Assembly: GCA_012517145.1 (NCBI GenBank)
Contig: JAAYVM010000082.1
Coordinates: 1-54,115 of the forward strand
Length of the DNA stretch: 54,115 nt
Source of the DNA: Acholeplasmataceae bacterium
Lineage (GTDB): Bacteria; Bacillota; Negativicutes; Acidaminococcales; Acidaminococcaceae
Direction: 5' to 3'
Part shown: positions 50,408 through 54,115 of the stretch, in pieces
Layout of the letters: the number at the start of each line of letters is the position of its first letter
How positions within the stretch are numbered: the first letter of the stretch is position 1
The notes under the pieces: model-generated
The model's database searches: none
Told to the model about the DNA's origin: nothing
Seen by the model: the letters and a program-made list of their open reading frames with translations, nothing else
Made by a program: the position numbers and the translations under genes

Positions 50408-50791
50408 TTAGCCTATTTCGCCGGCAAGCTCTGTCCCGCGGACCTTAAGCGGACGGTTATTATCATCCACCATGACCACTTTGGGCACGCAGGCTTGTGC
50501 TTCTTCCGGCGTCATCATCGCATAAGCAATAATGATTACTTTGTCGCCGACAGTAACTTTGCGCGCTGCAGCACCGTTCAGGCAGATAACACCGGAATCC
50601 GGCTCACCTTCGATGACGTAGGTTTCCAGGCGGGCGCCGTTATTATTATCAACTATTTGTACGCGTTCACCCGGCAGGATACCTGCGAGTTTCATCAGGG
50701 TCGAGTCGATCGTAACCGAACCCATATATTCAAGATTAGCCTCTGTAACGGTGGCTCTGTGGATTTTACCGTGGAACATGTTGTAAAGCAT
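50408..50791 (-). CDS. panD: Aspartate 1-decarboxylase
   Basis: A 127-residue pyruvoyl enzyme that makes beta-alanine from L-aspartate for pantothenate. The self-cleavage site G24-S25 (EYMGSVTID) generates the pyruvoyl group; K9 and the [10 protein letters not shown] segment are conserved. Its start shares one base with the panC stop (TAATG) and has GGAGG 7 bases upstream. Last gene of the operon. Confidence 0.96.
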
Positions 50792-51645
50792 TATTTTACC
50801 TCCAAAATAGTATTGTCTATTAGTCTTGTTTTACCGAATCTGACCGCCAGGGCCAGAAGATTTTCACCCTGCATAGGGTTTGGGCATTCATTCAAATCAG
50901 GCATTTGATAAATTTCTACATAGTCGATGTCAGCCATCGGTTCTGCCTTGATCATCGCGGTTGTTGCCGCCACCAGCTTCTGAGGATCGTGCTCACCGGC
51001 AGCAAAGAGTTCCTGCGCATGTTTCAGGCTCTTAGAAAGGATCAGCCCTGCCTGGCGTTCCTCGGCAGACAAATAAGTGTTGCGGGAGCTCTTGGCAAGC
51101 CCGTCAGCTTCGCGCACTATCGGCATGATTCTCATCTGCAGATTGAAGAACAAATCTTTGACCATACGTTTCAAAACCTGCACCTGCTGGGCATCTTTCT
51201 GTCCAAAATAGGCTCTGTCCGGCTGGGCCAGATTAAATAGCTTGCTGACTACAGTAGTAACGCCGCGGAAATGAATCGGTCTTGACCTGCCGCACAGCAC
51301 TTTAGTCACGTCACCGGTGACTTCGACCCAGGTCATGTCTTCGCTGGGGTACATCTCTTTCGGCGACGGAGCAAAGACGATATCGGCACCCTGCGCTTCT
51401 GCCAATTTGCAGTCGGCATCAAGGGTACGCGGATAGCTGTCGAGGTCTTCATTCGGTCCGAACTGCGTCGGATTAACAAAAACGCTGACAACGACAACGT
51501 CGTTTTCCTGATTGGCTGCTTTCACTAAGGAAGCATGTCCTTCGTGCAGCGCACCCATCGTCGGTACGAGGCCTATCGTTTTTCCTGCAGTTTTGGCGAT
51601 GGCAATTTCATTTCTGAGTTCTTCTACTGTTTTACATAGAATCAT
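50791..51645 (-). CDS. panC: Pantothenate synthetase
   Basis: A 284-residue ligase joining pantoate and beta-alanine with ATP. The HIGH-like motif is [14 protein letters not shown] (29-42), pantoate/ATP residues lie in [12 protein letters not shown] and [12 protein letters not shown], and the C-terminal dimer domain is present. It lies 20 bp after panB and overlaps panD by one base. Confidence 0.96.
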
Positions 51646-51665: not shown

Positions 51666-52502
51666 TTAGTATAGTTTTTCCAGTACTTCATCATCTATTT
51701 TGAAAGTATGTTCAGGAGCTGGGAAACTGCGGTCACGGACGTCGTTAATGTATTCGGAAACGGCACCGACGATTTCCTTGTGCAGGTTGCGGTATTTCTT
51801 TGCAAATTTCGGTGTGAAACCATTGCTGAAGCCCAAGAGGTCGTTGCAGACCAGTACCTGGCCGCCACAACCGTTGCCGGCACCGATGCCGATGGTCGGG
51901 ATGGAAATCATTTCGCTGACTTTGGCCGCCAGTGCTGCCGGCACGCATTCCAGGACGATACTGAAAGCACCTGCTGCTTCGAGGGCTTTGGCATCATCCA
52001 CAAGTTTCTGTGCAGCTGCCACATCCTTGCCCTGAACCTTGAAGCCGCCAAATTGATTGACAGACTGCGGCGTAAGACCGATATGGCCCATGACCGGAAT
52101 ACCGGCCGTAACCATTTTTTTGACCAGCGGGCAAACTTCGCTGCCGCCTTCGAGTTTAATAGCCGTGCAGCCGCCTTCCTTCAGGAAACGTCCAGCATTC
52201 AGCAGGCCTTCCGCTTCGCTGGCCTGATAGCTCATGAACGGCATATCGCCGACGACAAGGGCGTATTTAGTGCCACGGACGACAGCCTGCGTATGATGAA
52301 TCATCGCATCCATCGTTACGGGAATAGTTGAACTGTAACCAAGCATTACGTTACCAACAGAGTCTCCGACCAGGATCATATCGATGCCTGCCTCATCCAC
52401 GTTACGCGCCATGGCGTAATCATAAGCCGTAATCATGGTGATTGGTTTGCCTTCCTCTTTCATTTGCCTGATCGTGCTGGTCGTAATCGGTTTTCTCTCC
52501 AT
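51666..52502 (-). CDS. panB: 3-methyl-2-oxobutanoate hydroxymethyltransferase
   Basis: A 278-residue TIM-barrel enzyme transferring a hydroxymethyl group from 5,10-methylene-tetrahydrofolate to alpha-ketoisovalerate, giving ketopantoate. Marks: ITAYDYAMAR, VGDSVGNVMLGY (metal-binding aspartate), IKLEGG, GHIGLTPQS and IGIGAGNGCGGQVLV. Second gene of the operon, 40 bp after the DUF2520 gene, with GGGAGG upstream. Confidence 0.96.
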   Translation of the reverse strand: MERKPITTSTIRQMKEEGKPITMITAYDYAMARNVDEAGIDMILVGDSVGNVMLGYSSTIPVTMDAMIHHTQAVVRGTKYALVVGDMPFMSYQASEAEGLLNAGRFLKEGGCTAIKLEGGSEVCPLVKKMVTAGIPVMGHIGLTPQSVNQFGGFKVQGKDVAAAQKLVDDAKALEAAGAFSIVLECVPAALAAKVSEMISIPTIGIGAGNGCGGQVLVCNDLLGFSNGFTPKFAKKYRNLHKEIVGAVSEYINDVRDRSFPAPEHTFKIDDEVLEKLY

Positions 52503-52542: not shown

Positions 52543-53406
52543 CTATTGCAGGGCACTTGCAAGCGCCTCAGCCTGTCCGGCATCAATGGTACCGTTGGCT
52601 TCAGCCAGACAAATTGTCTCTCTGCCAAGCGCTTTGTAAACTTCTGCGATTTTCGGGGGTAAGACCGCCAGATGTGCCTTGACCGTATTGATGTCACCGC
52701 GGGCAATGGGCCCAGTCAAAGCTTCACGCGCTAATTTGCTCTGATGCAGGTTGCGGGCTGTGCCGTCAAAGAGTGCCAATAGCGCTGACAAGCCGGCTTC
52801 CGGTGTCGGTGTCCATTTGCTCATCAGTTCCTGCGCTACCGCCATCGCTGCTACCACATAGTTGGAAGCAAAACAGGCTGCCGCATGGTAAGCCTTGCGT
52901 TCTGCGGCCGGCACAAGGAAGACCTGTGCTCCGAGCAATTCCGCAATTGCCTGCCCTATCTGCTGTGCGTTGGGCATACCATCTACTGCCATATAAATAC
53001 CCTGAAAAGAAACATCTGCGGAAGCAAAGCTCTGCAAAGGATGCAGGCTGCCGATCTCCGCACCTAATCCTGCCAGCGGCTGCAGTTCATCCAAACCCAA
53101 AGATCCGCTGCAATGGAAAAATGTTTTGCCTTGCAGTGACTGCGCTTCGCCTTTATTGCGGAAAACCTCCGCCAGTTCACCGGCAATCTCCCCTACCAAT
53201 CTGTCAGGTACAGTCAGAAACAGCACGTCACAAATAGCTGCCAGCTCTTCATTAGCTGCAAAACCCTTTACGTGGAAATTGTCTGCCGCCGCCAGCGTAT
53301 TAGCCTCTGTACCTGCTGTCAGGCCAACAACATCTACACCAGCTTGCTGCAGGCTTTTGCATAAGGCTCCTCCGACTTTGCCTGCGCCGATAATACCTAT
53401 CTTCAT
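52543..53406 (-). CDS. Rossmann-fold / DUF2520 protein, candidate ketopantoate reductase
   Basis: A 287-residue NAD(P)-dependent protein. The N-terminal Rossmann motif is KIGIIGAGKVGGALC; VLFLTVPDRLVGEIA follows, and the C-terminal DUF2520 domain is helical (FASNYVVAAMAVAQEL). It leads the operon panB-panC-panD, which lacks a classical panE. Position suggests it reduces ketopantoate to pantoate; a non-PanE enzyme of this role (PanG) is known from Francisella, but whether this is the same family I cannot verify. The ATG at 53406 has GGGAGG 6 bases upstream. Confidence 0.8.
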   Translation of the reverse strand: MKIGIIGAGKVGGALCKSLQQAGVDVVGLTAGTEANTLAAADNFHVKGFAANEELAAICDVLFLTVPDRLVGEIAGELAEVFRNKGEAQSLQGKTFFHCSGSLGLDELQPLAGLGAEIGSLHPLQSFASADVSFQGIYMAVDGMPNAQQIGQAIAELLGAQVFLVPAAERKAYHAAACFASNYVVAAMAVAQELMSKWTPTPEAGLSALLALFDGTARNLHQSKLAREALTGPIARGDINTVKAHLAVLPPKIAEVYKALGRETICLAEANGTIDAGQAEALASALQ

Positions 53407-53432
53407 CAAGCACCTCCCTCATCGCCGGACAC

Positions 53433-53600
53433 AAAAAAACGCACCCCAGCCGGAGTGCGTAGTTAAACAAAATGTTATTGTGTCTACGTCCCGGTCTTAA
53501 AGATCCAAGCGATATTGACATATTTTTCTTTTGCTGATCAGTTTTCCGTGTTGCGGTGAAGCGCCGAAGCTACCTCCCGCCGGTACTTACTAACCAACGC
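53433..53600 (-). promoter_or_regulatory. Structured leader with terminator/antiterminator before the pantothenate operon
   Basis: Leader RNA from about 53600 leftward. It ends in a terminator (ACGCACTCC with GGGGTGCGT, 53439-53460, then seven T). An exclusive pairing exists: CGTAG (53488-53484) with CTACG (53462-53458) and CCGG (53494-53491) with CCGG (53453-53450), which would break the terminator. The 5' part has a UUCG-capped hairpin around 53551-53581. This is the form of a riboswitch or attenuator; I cannot match it to a known class. Confidence 0.6.
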
Positions 53601-53606
53601 AGGTAA

Positions 53607-53635
53607 ATGATACCATACTAATTTTCGGATTGCAA
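53607..53635 (-). promoter_or_regulatory. Promoter of the pantothenate operon
   Basis: Complement strand TTGCAA (53630-53635), 17-base spacer, TATCAT (53607-53612); start of transcription expected near 53600. Confidence 0.6.
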
Positions 53636-53916: not shown

Positions 53917-54115
53917 ATGCCCTTTGTCAACATCAAAATAACCAAAGAAGGCGATGTCACCCCTGAAAAGAAAGCCGCACTCATTAAGGGAGCTACCCAG
54001 CTACTCGTCGATGTGCTCGGCAAAAATCCTGCCACTACAGTCGTCATCATCGAAGAAGTCGAGACAGACAACTGGGGCATCGGCGGAGAAAGCGTTACCG
54101 CCCGTCGTAAGGCAA
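53917..54115 (+). CDS. 4-oxalocrotonate tautomerase family protein, cut by window edge
   Basis: The first 66 codons of a tautomerase. The mature N-terminus would be Pro-1 (MPFVNIKITKEG), the catalytic base of the family, followed by the typical helix KKAALIKGATQLLVDVLGK and a strand TTVVIIEEV. Such enzymes interconvert keto and enol forms of small acids. GGTGAGG lies 9 bases before the ATG. The 3' end lies outside the window. Confidence 0.85.
   Translation, partial: MPFVNIKITKEGDVTPEKKAALIKGATQLLVDVLGKNPATTVVIIEEVETDNWGIGGESVTARRKA

Follow-up and report, generated by a model that had tools for sequence, protein, structure and literature searches.

Closest described systems

Leaders of the purine and SAM-I type are examples of OFF-type transcription-terminating riboswitches, and leaders of the PyrR type are protein-bound attenuators. 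The leader described here resembles both. With the riboswitch leaders it shares the succession of an aptamer-like domain, an overlapping antiterminator, a terminator and then an operon, but those leaders have one compact pocket, whereas the pan leader has two small separate hairpins that are a candidate sensor only. With the protein-bound attenuators it shares a conserved hairpin of simple form, with bulges, upstream of an operon for biosynthesis, together with an antiterminator and a terminator; it differs in that no regulator protein was found in the operon of the window, which is the whole 54,115-nucleotide stretch of DNA that was analysed.

The nearest described system is the pan motif (RF01749), which Weinberg et al. 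2010 (PMC2864571) presented as tandem stems with bulged A residues associated with panB, panC and panD. A search of mainly open-access papers met the motif in its 2010 description and in catalogues from RNA-seq, and none of these papers assigned it a ligand or a protein. The window has the same two tandem stems with two bulged adenines each before a panB/panC/panD operon, and no difference from the motif was seen in the element itself. In other families of the class the commoner antiterminator is of the CGGRAGG:CCUUUCG type, whereas the window has CGUAG:CUACG, with panG as the first gene.

The pantothenate operon of the window

The operon is encoded on the minus strand, the same strand as its leader, in the order panG-panB-panC-panD, and is the complete pantothenate gene set that an earlier note on this DNA had placed downstream. 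The first gene, panG (52543–53406), encodes a DUF2520-type protein (PF10728, 3e-34) that is a putative ketopantoate reductase by analogy with PanG; its closest solved structures are uncharacterised oxidoreductases. PanG itself, a DUF2520 protein, is cited in PMC4572677 as a ketopantoate reductase demonstrated in Francisella. The next gene is panB (51666–52502), encoding ketopantoate hydroxymethyltransferase (TIGR00222, 346 bits, cut-off 208), followed by panC (50791–51645), encoding pantoate-beta-alanine ligase (TIGR00018, 355 bits, cut-off 213), and panD (50408–50791), encoding aspartate 1-decarboxylase (TIGR00223, 169 bits, cut-off 106). The ORF caller begins panG at a TTG (53409); the ATG at 53406 sits at the normal distance after a Shine-Dalgarno GGGAGG (53413–53418, minus strand) read from the sequence. 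A divergent gene on the plus strand (53917–54115, ATG at 53917) appears by eye to be of the 4-oxalocrotonate tautomerase type and continues past the end of the window.

Leader architecture and membership in the pan motif

The earlier note had described a well-spaced promoter followed by about 195 nt of leader with a UUCG-capped hairpin, and each of these elements is recovered. The promoter TTGCAA-17-TATCAT (53607–53635, minus strand), with an extended -10 formed by TG before the -10 hexamer, was located by a sequence scan that is by itself at chance level in the window (2 sites against 1.6 expected), and promoter-like matches are located at the same distance in relatives. The distance to the ATG at 53406 gives a leader of approximately 195 nt. 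Read 5' to 3' on the minus strand, the RNA consists of hairpin P1, an A-rich linker, hairpin P2, a short spacer and the terminator. The fold energy of a 169-nt leader is lower than that of shuffled sequences (z -3.3), with 0 of 200 shuffles as good.

Judged from its sequence, the leader of this operon for vitamin B5 (pantothenate) truly belongs to the pan motif, a kind of regulatory RNA that is already catalogued. The earlier note had suspected as much, and the Rfam covariance-model search that it proposed as a check identifies RF01749 at 53482–53579 (minus strand) with 38.0 bits, just 1.8 bits over the curated gathering score of 36.2, with the full model (1–92 of 92) covered. No further pan RNA occurs in the assembly. 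The pan motif is also the sole Rfam family to reach its gathering score in the whole 54-kb window, which speaks against another Rfam family as the identity of the leader; other Rfam leaders, T-box and others, score far below their gathering values in the window, with none reaching them.

The two tandem hairpins are positioned at 53579–53554 (P1) and 53512–53486 (P2) on the minus strand. P1, which is the UUCG-capped hairpin, reads CGGGAGGU-A-GC-UUCG-GCGCUUC-A-CCG as RNA, and P2 reads UCGCUUGG-A-UC-UUUAA-GACCGGG-A-CGU. The two bulged adenines per stem, which had been left unconfirmed, are identified in both hairpins by the RF01749 alignment (A53571 and A53557 in P1, A53504 and A53489 in P2). In every sequence feature tested, the element is a typical and well-formed pan motif RNA. 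An outer helix in the window (GUUGGUUAGU with ACUGAUCAGC, 53601–53539) encloses P1 and is absent from the Rfam model, and too few sequences are available for it; by eye a leader from a second genus (L002, g3) may have a similar helix, and one from a third (L026, g8) is ambiguous.

Conservation in relatives

Relatives were taken from the genomes of the window's family (59) and class (380), with pan loci found by the covariance model. A pan RNA is carried by 28 of the 59 genomes of the family and by 197 of the 380 of the class. Comparison was made on 146 oriented leaders in a structure-free MAFFT alignment. The earlier note had made its reading depend on covariation in homologous leaders, and this is observed: in P1 97.2% of cells are paired (140 rows), with all 10 pairs showing changes on both sides, and in P2 98.7% are paired (141 rows), these percentages being biased upward by the choice of relatives with a covariance model. 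Selection by that model alone cannot account for how varied the compensatory pairs of P1 are. When the arms are slid, pairing falls to 36–43% in P1 and 22–44% in P2. The bulged adenines are conserved at 100% and 99% in P1 and at 100% for both in P2, and P2 contains invariant sequence beyond the needs of its stem (CUU, G and A at 99–100%). The conserved core is small, comprising the stem and two bulged adenines of each hairpin, while the loops and the linker are variable. For P2, closure by a third helix (UGUC:GACA in the window) was rejected as a general feature, since this helix is 46% paired across relatives, which is not above the slid controls.

The surrounding signals are conserved as well. 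A promoter-like match with a score of at least 9 occurs within 75 nt 5' of the motif in 123 of 145 leaders; shuffled controls give such a match in 105 of 725. In the leaders the matches lie mostly 10–29 nt upstream of the motif, with an extended -10. A terminator follows 141 of the 146 leaders, compared with 13–28 in shuffles and 28 of 145 in upstream stretches. In two genera of the same family (g2 and g6; G001–G009 and G014–G019) every genome except G004 has panC and no detectable pan RNA, so that in the two genera the RNA was lost, has diverged or was never present.

Antiterminator and terminator

The strong terminator of the earlier note corresponds to an intrinsic terminator at 53433–53460 (minus strand; stem-loop 53460–53439) with a 9-bp stem, a 4-nt loop and a U tract, a predicted energy of -14.7 kcal/mol and the RNA sequence ACGCACUCC-GGCU-GGGGUGCGU-UUUUUU. 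The competing pairing proposed there is likewise present. Its 5' half (53484–53494, minus strand; CCGG and CGUAG) shares nucleotides with the 3' arm of P2, and its 3' half (53450–53462, minus strand; CUACG and CCGG) does so with the 5' arm of the terminator, with CGUAG (53488–53484) pairing with CUACG (53462–53458) and CCGG (53494–53491) with CCGG (53453–53450).

Folding of growing window transcripts proceeds in three stages. P2 forms first. At 3' ends 53449–53446, where the 5' arm of the terminator is out and the 3' arm is not, the antiterminator is the minimum free energy fold at -13.8 to -14.5 kcal/mol, compared with -9.7 to -11.0 kcal/mol for the same transcripts with P2 forced. Once the 3' arm of the terminator is made, P2 plus the terminator is the best fold at -24.5 kcal/mol. 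The equilibrium of the full-length leader is thus the terminated fold, so antitermination must be kinetic. Because the antiterminator takes the 3' arm of P2, whatever keeps P2 closed favours termination.

This folding ladder, together with a partner-swap test on the relatives, indicates in silico that the antiterminator and the terminator exclude one another. For the P2 tail and the terminator arm, pairing is better in its own context than between swapped leaders (z -5.4 overall, 0 of 1000 swaps as good), a difference seen for the window's family (z -4.1) as well as for the other leaders (z -3.3), and seven other segment pairs all gave |z| <3. With one leader per family the result is not significant (z -1.3, 96 of 1000), nor is it inside family f33 (216 of 1000), and conservation of the pairing partners themselves accounts for part of this. 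The CGTAG:CTACG pair is common to three genera (L001, L002 and L026) with differing intervening linkers, and the class-common CGGRAGG:CCUUUCG shifts on both sides together in the window lineage, as an antiterminator predicts. In the examples from the window's family outside its own lineage, the antiterminators are weaker. The swap test is regarded as good but not final evidence for the predicted antiterminator. With the RF01749 match, the bulged adenines and the covariation, this preference for own-context pairing bears out the terminator/antiterminator leader that the earlier note had read from the window.

Two further pairings involving the tail after the U tract were dropped when their own context was not clearly better, the linker with the tail giving z -0.3 and the P2 tail with the tail z -2.7. 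Within 53431–53483 of the window the GACACAA flanking the terminator can pair with UUGUGUC. Similar flanking pairs are seen by eye in several family members (CAAUAA:UUAUUG or GGUAUAAA:UUUAUACC), with no clear support from the swap test.

The strength of the terminator by itself would suit a constitutive terminator or 5'-UTR structure with no regulatory role. This is very improbable given that a terminator lies between promoter and gene in 141 of the 146 leaders, that the structure covaries and has an alternative pairing, and that translational versions occur in importer genes. There are good grounds to favour the reading that pan RNA controls panG-panB-panC-panD by transcription attenuation with OFF logic, in response to pantothenate or a downstream product. 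The leader would probably turn transcription off when vitamin B5 or its product is plentiful. Both bulged-A hairpins would fold during transcription of the leader. If P2 is unheld, its 3' arm (CCGG..CGUAG) would be captured by the emerging 5' arm of the terminator, forming the antiterminator and allowing read-through into the operon. If the hairpins are bound by their cognate factor, P2 would remain closed and the terminator arms would be free to pair, stopping transcription before panG. Such a factor would report pantothenate or a later compound, from phosphopantothenate to CoA. While the RNA, its conservation, the competing pairings and the gene context are observed, we infer that binding stabilises P2, that it acts in the OFF direction, as the geometry of the antiterminator and P2 suggests, and which compounds may serve as signal.

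Genes downstream of pan RNA in the class

The first recognised gene after the 146 leaders belongs to the BASS family in 47 cases, PanG in 39, PanC in 34, PanB in 8, YhdT-PanF in 7, PanD in 2 and PanF in 1. Eight leaders have no seed match; ECF-S genes follow five of them, birA-coaX pairs two and an acid phosphatase gene one. The PanF protein was identified with TIGR02119 (468 bits, cut-off 328), and CoaX, the type III pantothenate kinase in the birA operon, was confirmed by PF03309. For the PanT-like ECF-S protein, the nearest entries in the PDB are 4rfs chain S and 6zg3 chain C, which we take to be pantothenate ECF transporters. The nearest structure to the BASS protein is a Neisseria transporter (3zuy/8oyf), which binds pantoate (PMC10645422). 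The search, which covered the main texts of open-access papers, found none giving importer or coaX targets of pan RNA. The leaders collected here widen the target list to pantothenate importers and birA-coaX; earlier reports of these targets may exist.

A common arrangement is a BASS gene (PF01758) and then panC after the pan RNA, which is seen in 42 of the 146 leaders (including L004, L005, L008–L011, L031, L033, L035 and L041). At least two genomes with this arrangement (G331 and G217) contain panC and are missing panB, and this gene content suggests that they import pantoate and complete pantothenate from it. In two leaders of a single family (f22; L111 and L132), the pan RNA is followed by birA, encoding a biotin ligase with a helix-turn-helix, and coaX.

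Importer leaders exhibit a second arrangement. In four ECF-S leaders of the first set (L114, L131, L136 and L141) there is no terminator, and P2 runs directly into GGAGG and the start codon. P2 also abuts GGAGG and the start in further ECF-S leaders (L151, L154, L155, L158 and L162) and in leaders of PanF operons, including L150, L156, L160, L167, L168, L169 and L170. The same P2 hairpin is thus placed where it would block translation, and it appears to serve translational control too.

Nature of the signal and of its receptor

Pan RNA is strongly associated with panC in the class: 176 of 197 carriers have the gene, and among non-carriers it is present in 63 of 183 (Fisher p 4e-30). Among the 21 carriers that are missing panC, the pan RNA precedes a PanF or ECF-S gene in 17. 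Ten of these 17 genomes are at least 92% complete and contain neither panB nor panC (G045, G162, G173, G186, G189, G276, G320, G322, G346 and G355); gene absences in draft genomes can be artefacts, which ten cases over several families make unlikely as a whole. These genomes constitute a natural experiment, as cells unable to make pantothenate keep pan RNA on an importer. Since such cells neither make pantoate nor are able to use it, pantothenate or one of its later products is the expected signal. The coaX gene under pan RNA in one family also fits such a signal. Gene content therefore speaks against pantoate as the signal and for pantothenate or a compound further along the pathway, such as CoA.

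An early intermediate, namely ketopantoate, pantoate or beta-alanine, is accordingly an improbable signal. Synthesis genes and pantoate-type BASS transporters are among the targets, and PanS-like BASS proteins bind pantoate (PMC10645422), as such a signal would have it, but genomes without panB and panC, in which pantoate is neither made nor usable by the known route, retain pan RNA in front of PanF or ECF-S genes. The auxotroph evidence removes these three compounds as likely signals and leaves a short testable list; with the widened targets, it makes the ligand question testable with few compounds.

With pantothenate or a later product as the preferred signal, the cognate factor could be a protein or the RNA itself. 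A binding site for a dimeric protein was proposed by Weinberg et al. 2010 (PMC2864571) on the basis of the simple stems in tandem. Such a dimeric RNA-binding protein, for which CoA or pantothenate may act as co-repressor, would leave the terminator switch otherwise unchanged, and its chances are judged to be about even. It agrees with the small conserved core, the two bulged adenines per hairpin and the variable loops and linker, and with hairpins that adjoin Shine-Dalgarno sites in importer leaders. Against it, no candidate regulator protein was found in the operon, and the invariant CUU, G and A of P2 exceed stem needs and would fit ligand contacts too. Slightly more weight is placed on a protein than on a metabolite because the conserved core is small.

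A direct riboswitch for pantothenate, phosphopantothenate or CoA is a plausible but less probable reading of the leader RNA. Its position, the OFF-type platform, targets that span synthesis, import and pantothenate kinase, and the retention of pan RNA on importers in auxotroph genomes are all consistent with it, and tandem aptamers exist in other systems. The hairpins are small and simple, with no multi-helix pocket, and in the literature searched no ligand has appeared for the motif since its publication in 2010, both of which weigh against direct binding. So does the point made by two 2022 reviews (PMC9971707, PMC10043782) that CoA is conspicuously missing from the known riboswitch ligands. 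If the RNA does bind a metabolite, the interest lies in filling that gap. It is proposed, tentatively, that pan RNA may directly sense CoA, pantothenate or phosphopantothenate as the missing riboswitch class of the CoA pathway. Its single aptamer of tandem bulged-A hairpins would then act on both transcription and translation, and would control the genes for synthesis and import as well as, in one family, those for the kinase.

A separate observation concerns a complete genome that contains neither panB nor panC (G334), in which the gene after the only pan RNA (L071) encodes a secreted acid phosphatase of class B type (PF03767). This enzyme possibly serves the salvage of phosphorylated precursors.
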